NCBI GenBank assembly: GCA_947476535.1
Contig: CANJRC010000005.1
Coordinates: 1 to 64,000, forward strand
Reading direction: 5' to 3'
DNA length: 64,000 bases
DNA from: Betaproteobacteria bacterium
Lineage (GTDB): Bacteria; Pseudomonadota; Gammaproteobacteria; Burkholderiales; SG8-39
Part shown: positions 34,713 to 57,571 of the stretch, piece after piece
Position numbering within the stretch: the first letter of the stretch is position 1
Layout: each line of letters begins with the position of its first letter
Program-made: the position numbers and the translations under genes
The notes under the pieces: model-generated
Databases searched by the model: none
What the model saw: the letters and a program-made list of their open reading frames with translations, nothing else
Told to the model about the DNA's origin: nothing

Positions 34713-35456
34713 ATGAACGACGACGATCAACCGGCCCCGATTGTTCGATTCGAGCGGGTATCAAAGAAATTCGGGACAACCCCGGTTTTGCGCGAAGTCA
34801 CGCTTGACCTGATGCCAGGCATGCTAGCCGGCCTGGTCGGCGTAAACGGCGCAGGCAAAACAACAATGATCAAGTGTCTTCTGGATTTCTGCAGTTTCGA
34901 GTCTGGAAGAATTGAATTGCTGGGATTGCCGCATTCACAGCCGCAGTCGCGCCAACAGCTCGCGTTTCTTCCCGAGCGATTTGTGCCCCCGCATTTTCTG
35001 ACGGGAAGACAGTTCATCAAGGCCATGGCCGGCATCGCAGCGCACCCATATGATGAGGAGCTGGTCCTCGGCACTTTCGGGGACCTGGATCTTTCCTCTG
35101 ACGTCCTCGACAGACCGGTACGCACACTTTCCAAAGGCATGACCCAAAAGCTCGGCCTCGCGGCATGTCTATTGTCAAAGCGTCGTTTCTTTGTCCTCGA
35201 TGAACCAATGAGCGGCCTCGACCCCAAGGGTCGTGTCCGCGTCAAGCACAAGCTCAAACAATTGAAGCAGAACGGCAACACGCTCCTAATGACATCCCAT
35301 TCGCTCGCAGACATCGAGGAAATCTGCGACCATATGCTGGTGCTTCATAATGGGCAGATTGCGTTTGCCGGCGCACCTGCGGAATTCCGTTCACGGTTCG
35401 GTGCAAGCAACCTGGAGCAGGCGTTCCTAAGCTGCATAGAAAGTAGCCATGGCTGA
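34713..35456 (+). CDS. ABC transporter ATPase of the pilus locus
   Basis: A 247-residue ATP-binding subunit with Walker A GLVGVNGAGKTTMIK, an atypical signature LSKGMTQKLGLA (Lys where Gly is usual) and Walker B FFVLDEPMSGLDPKG with the switch histidine in LLMTSHSLADIEE. No permease lies beside it. Its likely partner is the ABC-2-type permease at 54320, 19 kb away at the other end of the same locus. The ATG at 34713 is preferred over 34674. The stop overlaps the response-regulator start by eight bases, so the two are translated together, which ties the transporter to the regulatory circuit. The substrate is unknown. Confidence 0.85.
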   Translation: MNDDDQPAPIVRFERVSKKFGTTPVLREVTLDLMPGMLAGLVGVNGAGKTTMIKCLLDFCSFESGRIELLGLPHSQPQSRQQLAFLPERFVPPHFLTGRQFIKAMAGIAAHPYDEELVLGTFGDLDLSSDVLDRPVRTLSKGMTQKLGLAACLLSKRRFFVLDEPMSGLDPKGRVRVKHKLKQLKQNGNTLLMTSHSLADIEEICDHMLVLHNGQIAFAGAPAEFRSRFGASNLEQAFLSCIESSHG

Positions 35457-36867
35457 AAAACCGAGCCTCTTGATCGTCGACGACGATCCGCTGATCACCG
35501 ACACGCTGTCCTTTGCGCTCGGTAGGGACTTCGACGTGCTGACCAGCGATTCGCGAGCACACGCCATCAGCCTGCTGCGGCAACTGGATCACCCCCCCCA
35601 AGTTGCACTAGTGGATCTTGGCCTACCGCCAATGCCCCATCGCCCCGACGAAGGTTTCAATTTGATCCAGGATCTGCTGGCCCATTCGCCAGCGATGAAG
35701 ATCCTTGTTCTATCCGGACAAAACGACGCGTCCAATGCTCGTCATGCACGAGCGCTGGGGGCCACGGAATTCGTGGCCAAGCCTTGCGACGCAGACAACC
35801 TGAAGAAGGTACTCTTGCACGCGCTCCAGTTCCGCGCAGCGGAGATGGAGGGTTCGGGAATTGCCGACGGCGACTCGCTGATCGGCAGAAGCCCGGCCTT
35901 GCACAAATTGAAAAGCCAGATCAGCCAATATGCGGACTCACCGTTTCCCGCGCTGATTGCCGGCGAATCCGGCAGCGGCAAGGAAGTAGCTGCAAGCCTG
36001 TTACACAAGCTCTCGATACGCAAGTCCAAACCGTGGTTTGCGCTCAATTGTGCAGCCATCGCCCCGACGCTGGTGGAGCCCACGCTATTCGGTTACGTCA
36101 AAGGGGCATTTACCGGGGCGACCCAGAACAAATCCGGGTATTTCGAGGATGCCGGTGAGGGCACGCTGTTCCTCGATGAAATAGGGGAGCTGCCGCTGGA
36201 ACTGCAGGCCAAGCTGTTGAGAGTGCTTGAGAATGGCGAATTCCAGCGCGTCGGGGAAACCCAATTGAGGTACTCGCGAGCCCGCGTTGTGGCTGCGACC
36301 AACCGGGACTTGCGCGCGGAGATCAAGAAGGGAAACTTTCGCGCCGACCTGTACCACCGGTTATCGGTGTTTACTATTGAAGTCCCGCCCCTTCGTGACA
36401 TGGATGACGACAGCGTGCTGTTGCTGGAGCATTTCCGGAAATTCTATGCCGAACAGGCTCGGCTCGCGCCCTTCAGCCTTGACGAGTCCGGCATTCGCGC
36501 TTGGCGCGGATACAGCTTCCCCGGGAATGTTCGTGAGCTTCGCAACATCACCATCCGGCTCACAACAAAACACGCAGGGCAGCGCCTTTCCTCGGCAGAG
36601 GTTGAGCCGGAGTTTGACTCCACTTCAGAACCGCAGTCCGGCCAAGCGCTACCCGCAGACGCCGGCGACCTCGTTGAGCAGGCGCGGCGACACCTGGAGC
36701 GAGAGCGCGGATTCAATCTAGATAACATCCTTCAAGCTTGGGAGCTGGGCTACATCGAGGCCGCGATGAAGATTACTCGCGGCAATGTCAGCCAGGCCGC
36801 AAAGTTGCTTGGCATCAACCGGACAACACTGTATTCACGCATGGAGTCAGCGCAGAAGCAGACGTAA
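35449..36867 (+). CDS. Sigma-54-dependent response regulator, PrsR-like
   Basis: A 472-residue NtrC-family activator. Receiver domain: D11/D12, phosphoacceptor D56 in ALVDLGLPP and K111 in VAKP. The DLGLPP segment and spacing resemble PrsR, the activator linked with PEP-CTERM loci. AAA+ domain: Walker A GESGSGKE (172-179), intact sigma-54 contact loop GAFTGA (219-224), Walker B GTLFLDEIGEL and arginine finger region FRADLYHRLSVF. The C-terminal Fis-type helix-turn-helix is GNVSQAAKLLGINRTTLYSRM. The presumed partner is the histidine kinase at 52353-54074. A predicted target is the -24/-12 promoter at 55951 before the pilin pair. Confidence 0.9.
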   Translation: MAEKPSLLIVDDDPLITDTLSFALGRDFDVLTSDSRAHAISLLRQLDHPPQVALVDLGLPPMPHRPDEGFNLIQDLLAHSPAMKILVLSGQNDASNARHARALGATEFVAKPCDADNLKKVLLHALQFRAAEMEGSGIADGDSLIGRSPALHKLKSQISQYADSPFPALIAGESGSGKEVAASLLHKLSIRKSKPWFALNCAAIAPTLVEPTLFGYVKGAFTGATQNKSGYFEDAGEGTLFLDEIGELPLELQAKLLRVLENGEFQRVGETQLRYSRARVVAATNRDLRAEIKKGNFRADLYHRLSVFTIEVPPLRDMDDDSVLLLEHFRKFYAEQARLAPFSLDESGIRAWRGYSFPGNVRELRNITIRLTTKHAGQRLSSAEVEPEFDSTSEPQSGQALPADAGDLVEQARRHLERERGFNLDNILQAWELGYIEAAMKITRGNVSQAAKLLGINRTTLYSRMESAQKQT

Positions 36868-36974: not shown

Positions 36975-38582
36975 ATGTACCTCAGCCACTTCGGCCTCAA
37001 TGAGCCGCCGTTCCGCATCACGCCGCATACCGATTTCTTCTTCGGTGGCGCCAATCGCGCAGCAACGCTTGAAGCCTTGCTCTACGCAATTAGCCACGAC
37101 GAGGGCATTGTCAAGGTTAGCGGGGAAGTTGGCAGCGGCAAGACCATGCTCAGTCGCGTCCTCATGGAGCGACTCCCGCCAGAGGTCGAGACCATCTACT
37201 TGGCAAATCCGTCCCTGTCTCGGGAGGAGATACTGTACGCCATTGCCGATGAACTCAAGCTCGAACTCACTGCGGAGCGCACCACTCGTCTCCTCAAGGG
37301 ATTGCTGGATCATCTAATCAAGCTGTACGCATCGGGCAGGCGCGTCGTGGTGTTGATCGACGAAGCGCATGCGATGCCCAAAGAAACATTGGAGGAAGTC
37401 CGCCTACTGTCGAACCTGGAGTCGGGACGCCACAAGCTGCTGCAGATCGTCCTGTTCGGCCAGCCGGAACTCGACGAGCAGCTCAACGCCGCCGACATGC
37501 GGCAACTAAAGGAGCGAATCACCCAGAGCTTTCGACTCGAACCGCTGGTCCGTGACGACATTGCCAGCTATATCGATTTTCGCATGCGGGCGGCCGGCTA
37601 TCGGGGACCCAACGTGTTCTCCCCCAGAGCAACGCGATTGATCGCCATCGCGTCCGAGGGACTGACACGGCGCGTCAACATCCTTGCGGACAAGTCGTTG
37701 CTGGCGGCGTTTGCCCACAACACGCATGGCGTCACCGAAAAAGAAGCGAGGGCAGCAATCCGCGACTCGAATTTTTTCAAGCCGCAAACCCGTTGGAGGC
37801 GCTGGCAGCTGATCACTTTGGGCGTTGTCGCCGGCTTGGTTGCAGGCCTTGCCGCCGGCTGGTTCGCCCAACGATCTGGGATCGAGTCGCGTGTTGATCT
37901 TCGCACACCCGCGGCATCGGTTACCGCGAACGTCCCGTCCCAATCAATAACCGCGGCCAATTCAGACAACCCAGCGACGAATGGATCGGCCCCTGCGACC
38001 CCCAGCCAAGGAAATTCGGCCCCCTCAGTGCCCTTGACGGCGTTAATGCCGCAAGCAACGCCGGCATTGCCGTTGAGCACGGGGGAGCGTGCTGGGTCAA
38101 CGACCCCTACCGCTTCTCCTGCTCGCACTCAACCGCTGGCCGAACGCCCTGTTGGCGCCGTCAACGACAAACGACAGAATGCCGACGCAAAGCTCGCGCC
38201 CGGCACGCCAACAAGGGACGCAGCGGCCAACACGGTGCCGCCACAACAGGGAAAACTGTTCACGACCCGCTATGAGTCCACTCAGGAATGGCTCAAGACG
38301 ACACCTGGTGGCATTCAGTCAATTCAATTACTTACGGTCAAGGAAGAGCAACTTCCCCGGATGGAACGTTTTCTGCAGCGCGCCACGACCTTGGTCCCGG
38401 CAGACAAATTGCACGTCTATAGCGTCAAAATTGACGGGCATCAGCATTACCGGGCAGCCTATGGGGAGTTCGCGGATGCGACTCAGGCGCGGGCAGCCAT
38501 GGCTGAACTTCCACCGCAACTCAAGTCACAGAGTCCGTATATTCGATCCGTTGCACGGATGCAAAGTCAGAATCGGCAGTGA
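36975..38582 (+). CDS. MshM/ExeA-like AAA ATPase with membrane anchor and SPOR-like tail
   Basis: A 535-residue inner-membrane protein. The cytoplasmic part opens with the ExeA/MshM signature MYLSHFGLNEPPFRITPH and has Walker A GEVGSGKT (50-57) and Walker B LIDEAH (about 127-132). One membrane helix lies at about 279-297. The periplasmic part is low-complexity (Pro, Ala, Thr, Ser; about 300-440) and ends in a SPOR-like domain (YSVKIDGHQHYRAAYGEFAD, TQARAAMAELP), as in DamX-type proteins that bind septal peptidoglycan. It would help pass the secretin through the cell wall. It opens the assembly gene series, 107 bases after the regulator. Upstream is a small inverted repeat (36897-36912). Confidence 0.88.
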   Translation: MYLSHFGLNEPPFRITPHTDFFFGGANRAATLEALLYAISHDEGIVKVSGEVGSGKTMLSRVLMERLPPEVETIYLANPSLSREEILYAIADELKLELTAERTTRLLKGLLDHLIKLYASGRRVVVLIDEAHAMPKETLEEVRLLSNLESGRHKLLQIVLFGQPELDEQLNAADMRQLKERITQSFRLEPLVRDDIASYIDFRMRAAGYRGPNVFSPRATRLIAIASEGLTRRVNILADKSLLAAFAHNTHGVTEKEARAAIRDSNFFKPQTRWRRWQLITLGVVAGLVAGLAAGWFAQRSGIESRVDLRTPAASVTANVPSQSITAANSDNPATNGSAPATPSQGNSAPSVPLTALMPQATPALPLSTGERAGSTTPTASPARTQPLAERPVGAVNDKRQNADAKLAPGTPTRDAAANTVPPQQGKLFTTRYESTQEWLKTTPGGIQSIQLLTVKEEQLPRMERFLQRATTLVPADKLHVYSVKIDGHQHYRAAYGEFADATQARAAMAELPPQLKSQSPYIRSVARMQSQNRQ

Positions 38583-38664
38583 AACGATATTATTTCAATT
38601 AAAATCATGCTCTTATATGATAATGTTATACTTTGTTAAGGTTCTATAAGGGATTCTGCCTCAC

Positions 38665-40389
38665 ATGCCTAAACCGGCTCGCAGCTACACGCGCTACGCA
38701 CCTGTCTTGCTGGTGCTTGCGGTCATGGCATGTTCGACACCGCCGATGCGGCGGTCAGAAAACCACGTTACCCAAACGACGACACCGCCGAGCGGGACCA
38801 TTCCTTCGCCGGTACAGGTACCAGCCAATCTGCCGCGCCCCAAGGTCATCCAGAAGCCGGAAACTTACAGTGTGGTGGTCAACAATGTCCGCGTCCAGGA
38901 GCTGCTGTTCGCCTTGGCTCGCGACGCGAAATTGAATGTAGACATTCAGGCGGGGATCAATGGCACGGTCACCATGAATGCCATCGACCAGACCCTCCCC
39001 CAGCTGTTGAGCCGCGTTGCAAGGCAGGCAGACATTCGATGGGAACTCAACGGGCCCAACCTGTCGGTGATGCCGGACTCACCCTACCTACAGGTCTATC
39101 GTGTTGATTACCTGAACATGGAACGCTCCAGTACCAGCACCGTCAGCGTCACCGGGAACATTGCCTCTGGGGGCGGTGGAGGTGGCAACGCCTCGAGCTC
39201 TTCGGTCACTAACCGGGTCGATAGCCAGTTCTGGAAAGTCCTCGTCGACAACATCAAGAGCCTCCTTCAGGAAACCGACAAGATTTTTCCAGTAGGCGCC
39301 GCGCAGCCTGCGCCAGCTGCCGCGGCCCAAGCCCCCGCCCTACCCGGTGCGCCAGGGCAACCGGCACCCGCTGCGACGGGAAGTGCGGCTTCAACACCGA
39401 GCGCGACATTCAGAGAAGCCGCATCAGTCATTGCCAACCCAGAATCCGGGGTATTGAGCATCCGTGCCACCGCCCGCCAGCACGAAAAAGTCCAGGAATT
39501 CCTGGATCAGGTGATTGCCGGTGCAACGCGCCAAGTGCTGATCGAGGCCACGATCCTCGAGGTGACCCTGAACAACGACTATCAGCAGGGCATTGATTGG
39601 TCGATCCTTAGCCGCGGGGGACCGCGAATCCCGTTCAGCATCACCCAGGGGTCGGCCGCCGCGCTGCCCGGCTCACCGACGGGTGCGTTCTTCAACGGAA
39701 CCATTTCCGACCCAACCTTCAGCCTGGGCAACGTTTCGGCAACCGTCAGGCTGCTCGAATCCTTCGGCAACGTGCGCGTCCTCTCTAGTCCGAAGCTATC
39801 CGTGATGAACAACCAGTCGGCGCTACTGCGAGTTGTCGATGACATTGTCTATTTCAAGATCGACTCGACAGTCGTGCCGGCAACGGTGGCAGGCGCGGCG
39901 CCCACGGTTTCCTTCAACACGACCGCCAACACCGTTGCCGTCGGCTTCGTAATGAGCATGACACCACAGATCGCCGAAAACGATACCGTGCTACTCAATG
40001 TGCGCCCGTCGCTCACCCGGATTCTCAGCTTCGTCAATGACCCCAATCCCAACATCCCCGCCGGAAGCCCCAATCGCGTGCCGCAACTGCAGCGCAGGGA
40101 AATGGAATCGCTGATCAAGGTGAACAACGGACAGATCGCGGTCATGGGCGGCTTGATCCAGGACGAAGTGCGCGAGTTCGATGACTCGATTCCCGGTGCA
40201 AGTCGTACCGGCTTCGGCGCGCTTTTCGGCCAGCGCTCACGGACCAATGTCAAAACGGAACTTGTGATATTCCTACGGCCCTTGGTCATCAGGGATCCAA
40301 GCATCGACGGCGACTACCGCGCATTCCGCGCCTTGCTGCCCGACGAAAATTTCACGTCCCGCCCCAATCCGGCGAGACCAGCCCGTTAG
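38665..40389 (+). CDS. MshL-like outer-membrane secretin (lipoprotein)
   Basis: A 574-residue secretin forming the outer-membrane pore for the pilus. It carries a lipobox (LAVMACSTPP), a periplasmic secretin/TonB short N-terminal domain (NNVRVQELLFALARDAKLNVDI), an N1-type domain (RATARQHEKVQEFLDQVIAGATRQVLIEA-type region, about 270-300) and the C-terminal secretin core (NVRVLSSPKLSVMNNQSALLRV, VGFVMSMTPQI, NNGQIAVMGGLIQDEV). A Pro/Ala-rich linker follows a glycine run near residue 170. The 83-base upstream gap is very AT-rich, so a promoter there is possible, but no strong hexamers are seen. Confidence 0.92.
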   Translation: MPKPARSYTRYAPVLLVLAVMACSTPPMRRSENHVTQTTTPPSGTIPSPVQVPANLPRPKVIQKPETYSVVVNNVRVQELLFALARDAKLNVDIQAGINGTVTMNAIDQTLPQLLSRVARQADIRWELNGPNLSVMPDSPYLQVYRVDYLNMERSSTSTVSVTGNIASGGGGGGNASSSSVTNRVDSQFWKVLVDNIKSLLQETDKIFPVGAAQPAPAAAAQAPALPGAPGQPAPAATGSAASTPSATFREAASVIANPESGVLSIRATARQHEKVQEFLDQVIAGATRQVLIEATILEVTLNNDYQQGIDWSILSRGGPRIPFSITQGSAAALPGSPTGAFFNGTISDPTFSLGNVSATVRLLESFGNVRVLSSPKLSVMNNQSALLRVVDDIVYFKIDSTVVPATVAGAAPTVSFNTTANTVAVGFVMSMTPQIAENDTVLLNVRPSLTRILSFVNDPNPNIPAGSPNRVPQLQRREMESLIKVNNGQIAVMGGLIQDEVREFDDSIPGASRTGFGALFGQRSRTNVKTELVIFLRPLVIRDPSIDGDYRAFRALLPDENFTSRPNPARPAR

Positions 40390-50239: not shown

Positions 50240-50496
50240 CGAGCCAGCGAGCGCCACGCCGTCCGAGATTCCGCTGCAGAGGGCATGGGTACAGCCCACC
50301 TCCCAAATTCCTGGCGGATGCAAGGTGCGTTTCGCAACCACTTCTCCCCCCCCCGGTCGCCCAACCCACGTCGATTTCGGCGATTGAAAGTTCCGCAGGG
50401 AGTCCCACCAAGGCGACAGTGCTGGCGTAGAATGCAAAAGGTGGAGACGCTACACATTTCCAGACTCAGAAGCCCAATTACGCCACACCTTCGTTG

Positions 50497-51801
50497 ATGT
50501 CTGCCCAGTCCAATTTCTTCGCCCGGCTTCGCAGTGCGGGCGTAAGCCCCGGCGACACGGAAGACATCAGGATTCGCAAGTCCATTCTTGTCTTTGCCAT
50601 GGGGCTGATGACAGCGGCCCCCATGTTCTGGCTCGCGTTGTACTGGTTGATGGGATTGCAGTTATCCGCGTCACTGCCGATGGCCTATCAGCTCCTTTCG
50701 GTGGCGACATTCCTGATCTTCGTCAAGACCGGCAATTTCATCTTCTTCCGCTATGCACAACTGGGACTGTTCCTGTTCTTCCCGTTCATCGTGCAACTGG
50801 CAATCGGCAATTTCATTGCCGCAAGCGGGGTCGTTCTGTGGGGCATACTCGCACCGGTCGTTGCCGTGCTCGTCCTGAGCGGTCGCGAGTCCATTCCATG
50901 GTTCATTGCCCACATCGTGATGCTTCTGCTTTGTGGCTATATCGACTTCGAACTTGTCGGCACTTCACAACCAAGACCGAACGTTCCGCTACGGACCAGC
51001 GCAACGTTCTTCATGCTCAACTTCATCGCAATATCGGGCATCGTGTATTTCCTGATGCGATACTCGGCAAAGGAAAAAGATCGTTACGAAGCCGACCTCG
51101 AGACTGCGCACGGATTGCTGAAGATTGAGCAGGAAAAATCGGAACGGCTCCTGCTGAATATCCTGCCTAGACCGGTTGCGGAACGGCTCAAGGCCAGCAA
51201 CAGCACCATTGCTGATGGCTTTGCGGACGTGACGGTGATGTTCGCGGACATCGTCAATTTCACCGCCATTGCCGAAGGGATGTCCCCGAGCCAGATCTTT
51301 TCGATGCTAAACAAGATTTTCTCGACATTCGATTCACTCGCCGAAAAGCACGGCCTTGAAAAAATCAAGACGATCGGCGATGCGTACATGGTCGCGGGCG
51401 GGCTCAATGACGATGCCGGCATCAACTATTCGGAGGCCATCGCAAACATGGCACTGGACATGCGCGACGTCCTGGCAAACGACACAACCATCAACGACAT
51501 GCGGCTGGAAATCCGCATGGGAATTGGTACCGGTCCCGTGGTCGCCGGAGTGGTCGGCACCAAGAAGTTCATCTATGACCTGTGGGGCGATACCGTCAAT
51601 CTGGCCAGCCGCATCACCTCGGAAGGAACGCCCGGCACCATTCATGTGGATGCAACGACCTGGCGCCGCCTGCGTTCACGCTTCGCCTTCGATGCGCCCC
51701 AAACTATCCGCCTCAAAGGGAAAGGGGAGACGGTGGTCTACCGGTTGATTGGCCACTCCGAAGCCGGACAGCCCGGTAGCGGTGGACTGGACAGATCATG
51801 A
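50497..51801 (+). CDS. Membrane class III adenylate cyclase
   Basis: A 434-residue membrane protein with about six N-terminal helices (residues 28-188), a coiled signalling helix (KEKDRYEADLETAHGLLKIEQEKSERLL-type, about 192-220) and a complete C-terminal cyclase domain. Metal ligands D251 (MFADIVNFT) and D295 (KTIGDAYMV), adenine-selecting K291 and D361 (DLWGDTVNLASR), and transition-state N368 and R372 are present, so it should make cAMP and not cGMP. It follows the pseudopilin gene by about 255 bases and overlaps the next gene by four, so it belongs to this locus. The signal sensed by its membrane part is unknown. Confidence 0.9.
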   Translation: MSAQSNFFARLRSAGVSPGDTEDIRIRKSILVFAMGLMTAAPMFWLALYWLMGLQLSASLPMAYQLLSVATFLIFVKTGNFIFFRYAQLGLFLFFPFIVQLAIGNFIAASGVVLWGILAPVVAVLVLSGRESIPWFIAHIVMLLLCGYIDFELVGTSQPRPNVPLRTSATFFMLNFIAISGIVYFLMRYSAKEKDRYEADLETAHGLLKIEQEKSERLLLNILPRPVAERLKASNSTIADGFADVTVMFADIVNFTAIAEGMSPSQIFSMLNKIFSTFDSLAEKHGLEKIKTIGDAYMVAGGLNDDAGINYSEAIANMALDMRDVLANDTTINDMRLEIRMGIGTGPVVAGVVGTKKFIYDLWGDTVNLASRITSEGTPGTIHVDATTWRRLRSRFAFDAPQTIRLKGKGETVVYRLIGHSEAGQPGSGGLDRS

Positions 51802-52352: not shown

Positions 52353-54074
52353 CTACCTGTTGCTCGCGCGAGGAATGTCCCCCTTTAGGGTAAAACATAC
52401 GTGGCCACGCGCATTTTCCGTCAATTGCAGTGAATAGCCCGACACCTCGGCAAGACGAGCTGCTTGATACAGGCCAATGCCGAACCCCGACTCGGAAGGG
52501 ACAGGCCCGCGCAGCAGGCCCTTGAGGACTTCAGGCGCCACTGGCGCGCCGCTGTCGCAGACCCGCAGCTCGATTGCGGCTCCGCACGAAAACCCGGCCC
52601 GGATCGATACTCCAGGATCCTGTTTCTTTTTCCTCACTGCGTTCTGCAACAGATTGTCGGATGCGCTGTCGAAGAGCTCCTTGGGCAGTAGCAACGATTC
52701 CGGTATTTCCGCCGCGTCGAACTGAATCTCATGGTTCTGGTAGGTACGCAGCAACCCCTCCCACCAGAGGCGCGCCTGAACAAATCTCCCCGTGTCGGTC
52801 TGCGGTTTTTGCAATTTATCCACCGTCTGCTGCAACCGCTGGGTGATTGCAGGCAATTGCCGGCGAATCAGCGCAGCCAGCTCCGCTGAGTCCTGCTCCG
52901 AATCGCGCGCAGCCGCCGCACACAGCACGTTCAACGACTGGAGCAGGTTCTTGACGTCGTGCGTCATCCGCGCACCGGTTTCATGTACCGCCTGCACATA
53001 GGTCTGCTGCTGCAACTTTTGTTCACGAATCTTCGCAATGTAGAACTCACCGAGCAATTGCCCCAGCAGATGGAAATGCCACTCCAGAGACGGGCTCAGC
53101 TTCTGGCGGGTAAATACACGCAGGTGCAGCTCCTGGTTCGTATACTCGATGGAGTGCTTGGACACCTCTCCGAATTCACCCGCCTCGGTCGCCGATTGCC
53201 AGAATCCGCCTTGTACCCATGGCAATCGGGAAAGTCCATGGGTCGCCTCCTTGAGAAAGCGTTCCGGCTTCGATTCGAGCTGCGACAACTCGGCAAGTAT
53301 GAACAGCCATTGCTCGAATGGCATCCCGATGGATAGCAAATACCTCGAAAAGTACATCGACAATCCTGAGAATCCCGCCCGAGGATCCCATGCGGCCGAT
53401 AAGGCCATCAGCACGGCGGCCAAGATCAGCAGGCTGTACATCAATGCATAGACATAATCGACACGCCCTATCTGCATGAACGCAAATGCCCCCAGCACCA
53501 GCACTACCAACAACAGGAACAGGACCGTTGCATAGAAAAAGTCCACGATCTGCGGCGTTTCCGCGGAATCCGGTTCAACCGGAATAATGAGCATCACCGC
53601 AAACAAGCAGGGCAGGCCGAACTGCGCCAACATCGTGACTTCATTTTGCATTCGCGATGGAATCACCGCGTTGGGAACGATCCAAAGCAGCAACAACGCA
53701 ACCAGGTAAAAAAGCACCACAAGATAGAAGCGGCGCAACCCGCGCGCCTGGAACAGGAATACCTTTCCACCGACAATTCCCGAAAGAACGCTGACCCACA
53801 GGACCAGAAGCCACCAATTCAGGTAGAAAAGGATTCCGAGCGAGACAATGGCTATGCCGAAGATCTGGGTCGGACTCAGTCGTTGCTCGCCCCGCATGAA
53901 CGGCTGCCAAGTGATAAACAAGCCGAAGTGCGCCAGCATGAAAGCCCGCGCCCAAAAATCCTCGGCGCCGCGCAAGGCAGCTACGTGGAGCAGGACCAAC
54001 ATGATGAGGAATAACACCCGCCAGTAGCGGGTAATCGCCATTTGTGACGCGCCAATCAACGTGCTTGGAGCCAT
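52353..54074 (-). CDS. Membrane sensor histidine kinase, PrsK-like
   Basis: A 573-residue kinase. The first 225 residues hold about seven membrane helices, followed by a GAF-like linker (about 235-345) and the transmitter: phospho-acceptor H372 in MTHDVKNLLQSL, N-box DNLLQNAVRKK (N477), G1 box CDSGAPVAPE and G2 box GFGIGLYQAARLA. The HDxKN pattern resembles PrsK kinases that pair with PrsR regulators. The ATG at 54074 has GAGG six bases upstream. It is the only reverse-strand gene of the pilus locus, and its expected partner is the regulator at 35449, 16 kb away. Confidence 0.85.
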   Translation of the reverse strand: MAPSTLIGASQMAITRYWRVLFLIMLVLLHVAALRGAEDFWARAFMLAHFGLFITWQPFMRGEQRLSPTQIFGIAIVSLGILFYLNWWLLVLWVSVLSGIVGGKVFLFQARGLRRFYLVVLFYLVALLLLWIVPNAVIPSRMQNEVTMLAQFGLPCLFAVMLIIPVEPDSAETPQIVDFFYATVLFLLLVVLVLGAFAFMQIGRVDYVYALMYSLLILAAVLMALSAAWDPRAGFSGLSMYFSRYLLSIGMPFEQWLFILAELSQLESKPERFLKEATHGLSRLPWVQGGFWQSATEAGEFGEVSKHSIEYTNQELHLRVFTRQKLSPSLEWHFHLLGQLLGEFYIAKIREQKLQQQTYVQAVHETGARMTHDVKNLLQSLNVLCAAAARDSEQDSAELAALIRRQLPAITQRLQQTVDKLQKPQTDTGRFVQARLWWEGLLRTYQNHEIQFDAAEIPESLLLPKELFDSASDNLLQNAVRKKKQDPGVSIRAGFSCGAAIELRVCDSGAPVAPEVLKGLLRGPVPSESGFGIGLYQAARLAEVSGYSLQLTENARGHVCFTLKGDIPRASNR

Positions 54075-54261
54075 GAAGGACCTCAATTTATGGCGGATTG
54101 CGACGAACTGACTGCTTGCAGCCAACGGCCCTTGGCCTTAGGCTATGCGACGCACGTTTCGTACCATACTGATATGCGAAATGCGATTTTCTTAATGTTT
54201 GGCCTCAAGCGTCCGAGCGCGCCTACCAAAATTACCGTTTGGCGCCCTGAAGTAGGGGAGT

Positions 54262-54319: not shown

Positions 54320-55084
54320 ATGGCCTATTTCAATACAGTCATCCGACTCATCCTGATTGAAGCGGTCAGGTCGCGACTTCCCTGGCTGCTTTTGATCGTG
54401 ATTGTTGTCTCGTTCGGCTTGTCTCAATTTCTGGGGCAGGTAGCCATCATCGAAGCAAGGGAAATCCAGGCGACCCTGCAAGGGGCCTTCCTTCGCGTGA
54501 CCGCAGTCTTCATCATTGCCACATTCGTGATCACGAGCATGGTTCGCGAGGCGAATGACAAGGTTACCGAACTGCTGCTGTCGCAGCCTGCGCCAAGAGC
54601 CGCCTACTATTTCGGAAAATTGGCGGGGTACACAACGGTGGCAGCATTCGTCGCCATAATTTTTTCGCTGCCGTTGATCTTCTTCGCTCCGATACCCGGC
54701 CTGCTGGCTTGGACATTTTCCCTCGCCTGTGAACTGTCGATGATGGCGGCAATGAGCCTGTTTTGCGTCCTTTCCCTGACGCAAATACTGCCCGCCATCT
54801 CCGCCACGGCAGCGTTCTATTTGCTAGGGCGATCGCTTGCCGCGATGCAGCTCATTGCTACAGCGTCCGTGTCGAAGATCCCGTCGTTTGCCGACCTGGC
54901 AATCAGCACCCTGGTCAATGTGGTATCCCTGGTCCTTCCAAGCATCGATCAAATGACCATTTCCGAGTGGTTGGTCCATGCACCATCATCTGAGAGACTG
55001 CTTGCGTCCTCAGGTCAGGCCTTTCTCTGTGTCGCCTTGCTGGCCGCTGCATCCCTATTTGATGTTTATCGAAAAAATCTTTAG
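54320..55084 (+). CDS. ABC transporter permease of the pilus locus
   Basis: A 254-residue membrane protein with six predicted helices, resembling ABC-2 type permeases (NosY-like: FLRVTAVFIIATFVITSMVRE, KVTELLLSQPAPRAAYYFGKL). No ATPase lies nearby; the ATPase at 34713 is the likely partner, since both flank the same locus and both are otherwise unpaired. It overlaps the following gene by 23 bases, so the two are coupled. The ribosome-binding site is weak. The substrate is unknown. Confidence 0.8.
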   Translation: MAYFNTVIRLILIEAVRSRLPWLLLIVIVVSFGLSQFLGQVAIIEAREIQATLQGAFLRVTAVFIIATFVITSMVREANDKVTELLLSQPAPRAAYYFGKLAGYTTVAAFVAIIFSLPLIFFAPIPGLLAWTFSLACELSMMAAMSLFCVLSLTQILPAISATAAFYLLGRSLAAMQLIATASVSKIPSFADLAISTLVNVVSLVLPSIDQMTISEWLVHAPSSERLLASSGQAFLCVALLAAASLFDVYRKNL

Positions 55085-55823
55085 AAAGTCATCCGAGCGC
55101 AGCATCCAGGCAGTGCCGAAAGCGGTCCTGCTTGGACTGGCGATTACCCTGGCCCTGCAGATTTCAGTGAAAATCTACAGTCCTGCACCGCGCGCGGGCG
55201 CATCGGATCTCTCGAGCCTTCCTTCTGGTGCCATCCTCCACCTGGCAGCGGCAGGAGATCCCTCGCCGCTAGCGAAGCTGCTCATGTTGCATCTACAGGC
55301 CTTCGACCTCAATGCCGGCAATACACTGACGTATCCAGCGCTTGATTACGCGCGACTGATCGACTGGCTAGGAAAAATACTTGAGCTCGACCCTGCCGGG
55401 CAATATCCCCTGCACGCCGCCAGCCGCCTCTATGCGGAAATACCCAATCAGGATAAGCAGCGAAAGATGCTCGACTTCGTCTATCAACACTTTCTTGCCG
55501 ACCCGAACCGGCGCTGGCCGTGGCTGGCGCATGCTGCGGCCATTGCCAAGCATCAACTGAAGGACCTTCCCTTGGCGCGCCAGTATGCGGCCGCGCTACA
55601 GGTGCATGCGACTGCCCCCGGAATTCCACTCTGGGCCAAGCAAATGGAAGCATTCATTCTCGAGGACATGGATGAGCTCGAAACCGCCCGGGTCATGATT
55701 GGCGGATTTGTGAACAGTGGCCAGGTAAAAGACCCCGGTGAACTTCGATTCCTGGATCAGCGCCTGAAGGCAATCGAGGCGCGTATTGCCACAAAAAAGA
55801 AGGGGAAGTACGCAGGTCAGTGA
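55062..55823 (+). CDS. Membrane-anchored helical-repeat (TPR-like) protein
   Basis: A 253-residue protein with one N-terminal membrane helix (VPKAVLLGLAITLALQISVKI) and an all-helical exported part with short repeats resembling tetratricopeptides (GQYPLHAASRLYAEIPNQDKQ, LAHAAAIAKHQLKDLPLARQY, DELETARVMIGGFVNSGQV). I know no named family. The start at 55062 lies inside the permease gene; the longer open frame upstream is not supported. Its coupling to the ABC permease suggests a periplasmic partner of the transporter, possibly contacting the pilus. This is inference. Confidence 0.6.
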   Translation: MFIEKIFRKSSERSIQAVPKAVLLGLAITLALQISVKIYSPAPRAGASDLSSLPSGAILHLAAAGDPSPLAKLLMLHLQAFDLNAGNTLTYPALDYARLIDWLGKILELDPAGQYPLHAASRLYAEIPNQDKQRKMLDFVYQHFLADPNRRWPWLAHAAAIAKHQLKDLPLARQYAAALQVHATAPGIPLWAKQMEAFILEDMDELETARVMIGGFVNSGQVKDPGELRFLDQRLKAIEARIATKKKGKYAGQ

Positions 55824-55862
55824 GACGAATATGCCGTCAGCATTTCATCACTACCGTCGAAT

Positions 55863-55933
55863 AGTCAACAAGATAGAATCAGTCTATTGATTTCTGCTGC
55901 AGTTTTCTCCCCATTTAGTCAAAAAAGAGTCAA
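55863..55933 (+). promoter_or_regulatory. Three AGTCAA repeats, candidate activator sites
   Basis: AGTCAA occurs at 55863, 55917 and 55928, just upstream of the sigma-54 promoter at 55951. The last two are 11 bases apart (one helical turn) and the first is 54 bases (about five turns) from the second. They could bind the PrsR-like regulator. Confidence 0.35.
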
Positions 55934-55950
55934 ATCCGTCCCGAGGCTCT

Positions 55951-55966
55951 TGGTACGAATTTTGCG
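55951..55966 (+). promoter_or_regulatory. Sigma-54 promoter of the pilin genes
   Basis: TGGTACGAATTTTGCG has the GG and GC elements exactly ten bases apart (GG-N10-GC), matching the -24/-12 consensus TGGCAC-N5-TTGC at most positions. Transcription would start near 55977, giving a leader of about 30 bases before the first pilin ATG. The regulator gene at 35449 carries the sigma-54 contact motif. Confidence 0.75.
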
Positions 55967-56005
55967 TATTTGGGTAAACCTATTTTCGCCAATGGCGGAG
56001 GAATG

Positions 56006-56713
56006 ATGAAAAATCAGGTTATTACATCCCTGAACCTAAGCAAGAGTCTGGGAAAACGTCAGGGCGGTTTTACACTGGTTGAAATAGCCATTGTGCTGGT
56101 CATCATCGGGCTTCTGCTGGGCGGCATCCTGAAAGGTCAGGAAATGATCACCCAGGCCAAGATCAAGAATGTTGTCAATGACTTCAATGGCATTACGGCT
56201 GCATTGAACTCCTATCAGGATCGCTATCGCGCCATTCCCGGTGACGATCGTAACGCCTCCACGCGCTGGACCACTCAAAGCCTGCCCACGGCGGGCAGCT
56301 TGAACGGCAACGGACAGATCAGCGGCACCTACAACAACTCCTTGACCACGCTCGCTACGGCTGGACAGGAGTCCAACCTGTTCTGGTGGCATCTGCGGCT
56401 GTCGGGGTTTGTTGCCGGCCCGACTTCCGGCACCGCTGCCGGTATCCAGCCTAATAATGCGGTGAACGGCATCATGGGCGTTACCACGGGCAATGGCTCT
56501 GGATCGCTTGGATTCGCGTCCCTCATCATCTGCACTTCCAACCTGCCGGACAAGATTGCCATCGCCGTTGACTCGCAAATGGATGATGGCGCGCCGGACA
56601 CCGGCCAGGTGCGTGGCATGTCCCAGACGGGGCCCAACCCAAATGTTGGTACTGCAGCGACGGGTTATCAGGAGACCGGCACCAATCAATACCTGCTCTG
56701 CAAGAACCTGTAG
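56006..56713 (+). CDS. Major type IV pilin (first of a tandem pair)
   Basis: A 235-residue prepilin. The leader ends KRQG-G; the N-methylated phenylalanine would be F22 of FTLVEIAIVLVIIGLLLGG, with Glu at +5. The globular part is beta-rich with two cysteines (LIICTSNLP and YLLCKNL), probably disulfide-linked and closing the C-terminal loop. The mature protein is about 215 residues, larger than many type IV pilins. A GGAGG ribosome-binding site lies four bases before the ATG at 56006; the ATG at 56003 is too close. It lies behind the -24/-12 promoter. Its copy follows directly. Confidence 0.9.
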   Translation: MKNQVITSLNLSKSLGKRQGGFTLVEIAIVLVIIGLLLGGILKGQEMITQAKIKNVVNDFNGITAALNSYQDRYRAIPGDDRNASTRWTTQSLPTAGSLNGNGQISGTYNNSLTTLATAGQESNLFWWHLRLSGFVAGPTSGTAAGIQPNNAVNGIMGVTTGNGSGSLGFASLIICTSNLPDKIAIAVDSQMDDGAPDTGQVRGMSQTGPNPNVGTAATGYQETGTNQYLLCKNL

Positions 56714-56869: not shown

Positions 56870-57571
56870 ATGAAATATCAAATTCTTAGACATGCCATTT
56901 TGCACAGCAAGAAGTCGCAGCAGGGATTTACGCTGGTCGAAATCGCCATTGTTCTGGTCATCATCGGGCTGTTGCTTGGGGGAATTCTCAAGGGCCAGGA
57001 AATGATCACGCAGGCCAAGATCAAGAATGTCGTCAATGATTTCAACGGCATCACGGCCGCGTTGAATTCCTACCAGGATCGCTACAGAGCCATTCCCGGC
57101 GACGATCGCAATGCCGCCACGCGTTGGACCACGCAAAGCCTGCCCGCAGCAGGAACGATCACGGGGAACGGACAGATCACTGGCAAGTACAACGCCTCGT
57201 TGACGGCCGTCGCGGTGACAACGCAGGAGTCGAACCTGTTCTGGTGGCACCTGCGCCTTTCCGGTTTCGTTGCGGGTCCGACCAGCGGTGTTGCTGCCGG
57301 CATTCAGCCAAACAATGCGGTGAACGGCATCATGGGTGTTGAGACGGGCGCCGGCGCTGGAACCCAAGGGTTTGCCTCGCTGATCATCTGCACATCCAAC
57401 TTGCCGGACAAGATCGCCATCGCCGTCGATTCCCAGATGGATGACGGCGCCCCTGACACAGGGCAGGTGAGGGCTCAGTCCCAAACCGCACCCAACCCGG
57501 ATCTTGGCGCTGCAGCAACGGGCTATCAGGAAACGGGCACCAATCAATACCTGCTGTGCAAGAACCTGTAG
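56870..57571 (+). CDS. Major type IV pilin (second of a tandem pair)
   Basis: A 233-residue prepilin nearly the same as its neighbour: leader ending KKSQQG, F20 at +1 and Glu24 at +5 of FTLVEIAIVLVIIGLLLGG, and the same globular core including CTSNLP and LLCKNL. Differences concentrate in the N-terminal leader, in about residues 85-110 (GTITGNGQITGKYNASL) and before the C-terminus. The ribosome-binding site GGAGG resembles that of the first gene. A strong terminator follows 20 bases after the stop. The gap of 156 bases between the two pilin genes shows no clear second promoter, so they are probably co-transcribed. Confidence 0.9.
   Translation: MKYQILRHAILHSKKSQQGFTLVEIAIVLVIIGLLLGGILKGQEMITQAKIKNVVNDFNGITAALNSYQDRYRAIPGDDRNAATRWTTQSLPAAGTITGNGQITGKYNASLTAVAVTTQESNLFWWHLRLSGFVAGPTSGVAAGIQPNNAVNGIMGVETGAGAGTQGFASLIICTSNLPDKIAIAVDSQMDDGAPDTGQVRAQSQTAPNPDLGAAATGYQETGTNQYLLCKNL

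Follow-up and report, generated by a model that had tools for sequence, protein, structure and literature searches.

The locus studied here raises the question of how the fibre subunit of a pilus is switched on, and whether the machine that assembles the fibre is switched on with it. The window, that is, the whole stretch of 64,000 nucleotides that was analysed, carries two tandem pilin genes in an MSHA-like type IV pilus cluster, and a preliminary description had placed a sigma-54 promoter exactly before them. The features concerned are listed in Table 1. The order of the cluster is kept across the family: genes for an ABC ATPase and the regulator are followed by the MSHA-like assembly genes and, in many genomes, a cyclase gene; then come the kinase gene on the opposite strand, the permease gene, a small conserved gene, the pilin genes, a kefB-like gene and kdsD. 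The ABC ATPase and ABC-2-like permease genes lie at opposite ends of the cluster, 19 kb apart, and are both conserved; their products may form one transporter. No structured RNA (riboswitch) was found in positions 30000-64000 with Rfam.

Table 1. Features of the pilus locus, in the order of their positions in the window
Feature	Positions	Strand	Basis or remark
ABC transporter ATPase gene (abcA)	34713-35456	+	just before regulator gene; start codon inferred; without sigma-54 site
NtrC-type response regulator gene	35449-36867	+	receiver, sigma-54 AAA+ domain with GAFTGA, Fis-type HTH
First assembly genes (ExeA-like ATPase, MshL-like secretin)	36975-40389	+	without sigma-54 site
Adenylate/guanylate cyclase gene	50494-51801	+	without sigma-54 site
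Membrane histidine kinase gene	52353-54074	-	HDVKNLLQ-type H-box; start codon inferred
Weaker sigma-54-like element before kinase gene	54151-54167	-	matrix scan
ABC-2-like permease gene	54320-55084	+	divergent from kinase gene
Distal dyad, putative upstream activating sequence	55835-55850	+	CGTCAGCATTTCATCA; degenerate; alignment with relatives
Proximal dyad, putative upstream activating sequence	55855-55870	+	CGTCGAATAGTCAACA; degenerate; alignment with relatives
-24/-12 sigma-54 promoter of pilin 1	55950-55966	+	TTGGTACGAATTTTGCG; rarity, matrix, conservation
Pilin 1 gene	56006-56713	+	235 aa; N-methylation/prepilin motif
Pilin 2 gene	56870-57571	+	aligned part 87% identical to pilin 1; without sigma-54 site of its own

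The GG-N10-GC sequence at positions 55951-55966 of the plus strand (TGGTACGAATTTTGCG) is correctly given in the preliminary description in its letters, coordinates and spacing, and the distance of about 40 bases to the first pilin ATG also agrees with our count, since 39 bases separate the end of the site from the likely start codon at 56006. There is an ATG at 56003 too; with the one at 56006, the distance from GGAGGA to the ATG equals that in pilin 2, and a good ribosome site stands immediately before the pilin 1 ATG. The site follows the consensus TGGCACG-N4-TTGCW with two departures, a T for C after the GG and a G for the final A/T, and it lies in the 182-bp gap that separates the start of pilin 1 from the preceding gene, whose stop is at 55823. 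Transcription is predicted to start at about position 55977. A consensus scan of 55824-56005 detected no sigma-70-like promoter.

Only three exact matches to TGGYACGN4TTGC are present in the whole 4.1-Mb assembly, and the pilin 1 site is one of them. As read from the translations, another lies before a gene for a nitrate-type transporter binding protein-like product adjoining an ANTAR-like regulator gene, which is a common type of target for sigma-54; the third falls within a gene. With one mismatch allowed the pattern showed no genome-wide enrichment and by itself was not decisive; the initial scan with up to two mismatches was likewise uninformative (23 found, 19.6 expected), and we therefore relied on a trained matrix and on conservation. 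The matrix was trained on other genera only, the genus of the window being left out. In this position-weight scan for -24/-12 sites, a check that the preliminary description had proposed, the sequence at 55951-55966 ranked first among approximately 128,000 window positions with 17.6 bits, whereas about 0.2 sites of at least 17 bits are expected by chance. At the level of sequence, the sigma-54 promoter is thus confirmed, well above chance.

Of 98 genomes from the family of the window, 72 encode relatives of the pilin. Upstream DNA was read for 45 orthologous first-pilin genes, and GG-N10-GC precedes every one of them; it starts 53-69 bases before the start codon in nearly all, and its position is conserved amid diverged flanks. 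A score of at least 10 bits was reached in 93% of 41 pilin upstream regions and in 0.7% of shuffles; because the best-scoring site was picked from each region, shuffles are the fair comparison. Among the second pilins of tandem arrays, none of 15 has a sigma-54 site at 12 bits or more. The comparison supports a refinement of the preliminary wording, in that the promoter would directly serve pilin 1, with no site of its own at pilin 2. No terminator was found between pilin 1 and pilin 2, and pilin 2 is probably transcribed by read-through from the pilin 1 promoter.

Two other arrangements of pilin genes were seen. Contig C27 of the same genome (L229) carries tandem short pilin-like genes, ORFs of 115 aa, before a ligase-like gene, and no sigma-54 site was found when looked for at these two genes. 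In one relative (G025, L051), the pilin gene directly follows abcA and a regulator homologue, beside kdsD, and does not follow the assembly genes.

Alignment of the pilin upstream regions of relatives revealed a second element, overlooked in the preliminary description: two dyads of the form TGTC-N8-GACA, which are a likely upstream activating sequence. With a spacer of 8, at least 7 of the 8 half-site letters are matched in 37 of the 45 promoters (2.2 expected from shuffles), whereas spacers of 3-7 and 9-14 give only 0 to 5 promoters. In 38 of the 45 the distance between the two dyad starts is exactly 20 bp, and the other spacings between 14 and 33 give 0 to 9. The proximal dyad usually starts 64-68 bases upstream of the -24 element; in the genus of the window the pair is placed further upstream than usual. 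The dyads of the window itself keep 11 of 16 half-site letters and align with better copies in sister species. A scan of the 98 family genomes showed that exact tandem pairs occur mostly at pilin promoters. Between the putative enhancer and the promoter, the sequence AATCAGTCTATTG at 55877-55889 is one mismatch from the IHF consensus WATCAANNNNTTR; this IHF-like site is kept in the closest relative only.

In the preliminary description, no sigma-54 pattern had been found before the assembly genes at 36975 and 38665 or before the cyclase gene, and separate control of assembly genes and pilins had been suggested. The absence holds in the window and in all 41 orthologues of each of the two assembly genes, as well as for the cyclase gene of the window; the counts for the regulator, ExeA-like and MshL-like genes are 0/42, 0/41 and 0/41, respectively, and none was found before abcA in 41-42 orthologues. 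In three relatives of one genus (L057-L059), a sigma-54-like site stands 56 bases ahead of the cyclase gene. Since the site occurs at the pilin orthologues but not at the assembly-gene orthologues, separate control is supported by this cross-genome comparison.

The region between the divergent kinase and permease genes is a different case. The weaker element before the kinase gene, also overlooked previously, scored 12.2 bits, a level at which approximately three sites per window are expected by chance; a similar element lies at nearly the same place in all four species of the window's genus that were read. Sigma-54-like elements precede 12 of 33 kinase orthologues and 9 of 35 permease orthologues (loci with the element between the two genes: L038, L039, L041, L046-L048, L052, L055, L057 and L058). 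In several genera the element is palindromic (GGCAY...RTGCC) and can therefore be read as -24/-12 towards both genes; it may serve as a further sigma-54 promoter or as an operator. These elements favour the explanation that the whole cluster is under the regulator, including the assembly and kinase genes, with the pilin promoter as one of several targets. We consider this unlikely, as it is opposed both by the lack of sites before abcA, the regulator gene, exeA and mshL described above and by the upstream regions of the kinase and permease genes, where no intact TGTC dyad was found.

We further compared pilin relatives from a scan of named genomes, split by whether the kinase gene stands beside the pilin gene. 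Of 32 loci with the kinase gene in this position, 26 have the promoter, as against 0 of 26 loci without that gene; when the family-like loci were set aside, the numbers were 15 of 21 and 0 of 26. The other 6 of the 32 kinase-positive loci have no site of at least 10 bits, and three of these are of the Thiotrichaceae type, without a recognisable site. A regulator orthologue (52-65% identity) was found in all 19 kinase-positive genomes tested and in none of 19 kinase-negative ones, although these counts overstate independence, since the sampled genomes share ancestry and were selected by kinase status. In Dechloromonas SSD3 the regulator gene is not near the pilin gene, and the association between kinase and regulator is therefore not one of linkage alone. 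Together with the synteny across the family, these comparisons lend good support to the self-contained circuit of kinase, activator and pilins proposed in the preliminary description. Because the promoter is found only where one particular sensor kinase adjoins the pilin gene, the pilus fibre seems to be turned on by a dedicated switch of its own.

Which activator would act at this promoter has to be considered against the other candidates in the genome. The intact GAFTGA loop previously noted in the local regulator is present there and is retained by 59 of the 60 orthologues inspected, among which the residues of the receiver and the HTH also show strong conservation. The regulator scores 363.4 bits against its closest NCBIfam model, TIGR02915 (PrsR; cut-off 502.6), and 348.9 bits against TIGR01818 (NtrC; cut-off 558.6), and it is also below the NifA cut-off. 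The genome, in an assembly 87% complete, encodes four full sigma-54 activators only, that of the window included; of the remaining three, one is encoded beside an NtrB-like kinase gene and two have GAFTDA. The latter are NtrC-type regulators (L079 and L080, on contigs C23 and C25), each encoded next to a histidine kinase gene. There are two copies of rpoN, one 2 kb past the end of the window (C5:65928), downstream of kds/lpt genes, and the other on contig C25 (20057).

The promoter could be activated by another enhancer-binding protein, such as NifA, PilR or NtrC, while the local kinase and regulator act elsewhere. The classic NifA site is TGT-N10-ACA, a box that TGTC-N8-GACA fits. NifA-like TGT-N11-AGA elements and GTCT elements have been described as the hallmarks of PilR sites (PMC6058289), and the activator beside the NtrB-like kinase provides a candidate within the genome. 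However, none of the 98 family genomes has a NifA over the cut-off, for which reason NifA was rejected as the activator; the other full activators in the assembly are the three proteins above, though a further one may be missing from it, at 87% completeness; and the promoter and dyads go with the local kinase, as the kinase does with the regulator of the window. We regard activation by another protein as improbable, slightly more so than control of the whole cluster. That the GG-N10-GC arose by chance and a sigma-70 promoter serves the pilins is scarcely credible and was rejected on conservation and matrix rank: loose GG-N10-GC patterns are common and the one-mismatch pattern is unenriched, but the site is conserved position by position in 45 of 45 orthologues and no sigma-70-like promoter was detected in the gap.

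With good confidence, we thus prefer the following model, in which the assembly genes stand apart. The membrane histidine kinase would phosphorylate the NtrC-type regulator, which would bind the two dyads, set 20 bp or about two helical turns apart; its GAFTGA loop would let it open the sigma-54 polymerase complex, with transcription dependent on RpoN, and the promoter would drive pilin 1. The assembly genes would use other promoters, so that the machine can be present while a signal switches on the fibre subunit. Against this model count the degenerate dyads of the window, the 17 kb between the kinase and regulator genes, the regulator gene of Dechloromonas SSD3 with its place away from the pilin gene, the six kinase-positive loci that have no site of at least 10 bits, and the relatedness of the genomes compared.

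Sigma-54 control of pilin genes by the two-component system PilSR has long been established (PMC6058289, PMC2725144). Judged by gene setting and cis-elements, the locus resembles the PilS-PilR/RpoN control of pilA in Pseudomonas aeruginosa and Geobacter sulfurreducens: as there, a two-component system would act through an NtrC-type activator whose gene lies in the same region, at a -24/-12 promoter immediately ahead of the major pilin gene and with an enhancer of TGT type. It differs in being set among MSHA-like assembly genes and the genes of an ABC transporter, in the distance of about 17 kb between kinase and activator genes, and in its enhancer, which is defined as two TGTC-N8-GACA dyads in tandem, 20 bp apart. 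PrsK-PrsR controls PEP-CTERM genes (PMC1569441), and pepA is RpoN-dependent (PMC9850573). The PrsR model is the closest to our regulator, the best match of the ExeA-like gene is an XrtA/PEP-CTERM-associated ATPase model (both below cut-off), and in both systems an activator site lies about 63 bases upstream of the sigma-54 element. On the other hand, the kinase has no match to the PrsK model, the regulator is under the PrsR cut-off and the target is a pilin; a PrsR-type activator site was rejected, because the conserved TGTC-N8-GACA differs from the PrsR site, a 17-mer ending in TTTACA (Haft et al. 2006, PMC1569441).

The cluster shares with that of MSHA pilus biogenesis the MshL-, MshE- and MshG-like genes, whose order is kept throughout the family, but it has a dedicated kinase, activator and ABC transporter, and its secretin scores 232.6 bits against TIGR02519 (MshL), just under the cut-off of 250.2, and is MSHA-like only. 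Like NifA-dependent promoters, it has TGT-N10-ACA, contained in the dyad, upstream of a -24/-12 promoter; unlike them, it has two dyads at a fixed 20-bp spacing, a conserved inner C and G, and a pilin as target.

No description of the kinase/activator/tandem-enhancer module was found in the open-access literature, and this particular module, with its tandem enhancer code in MSHA-like clusters, appears to be undescribed so far. On balance, and with modest confidence, we lean towards a new two-component system, distinct from PilSR and PrsKR, whose dedicated target would be the major pilin of MSHA-like pili in the Betaproteobacteria and in some Gammaproteobacteria; it would read TGTC-N8-GACA dyads 20 bp apart and activate the fibre subunit without activating the assembly machine. 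The kinase, the activator and the enhancer code form a separate module, travelling as a set across many environmental Betaproteobacteria, relatives of Azospira, Dechloromonas and Thiobacillus among them. The module allows a prediction of which pili in this group respond to a signal and what controls them, and its cis-code can be used to annotate such promoters in genomes known from metagenomes only.
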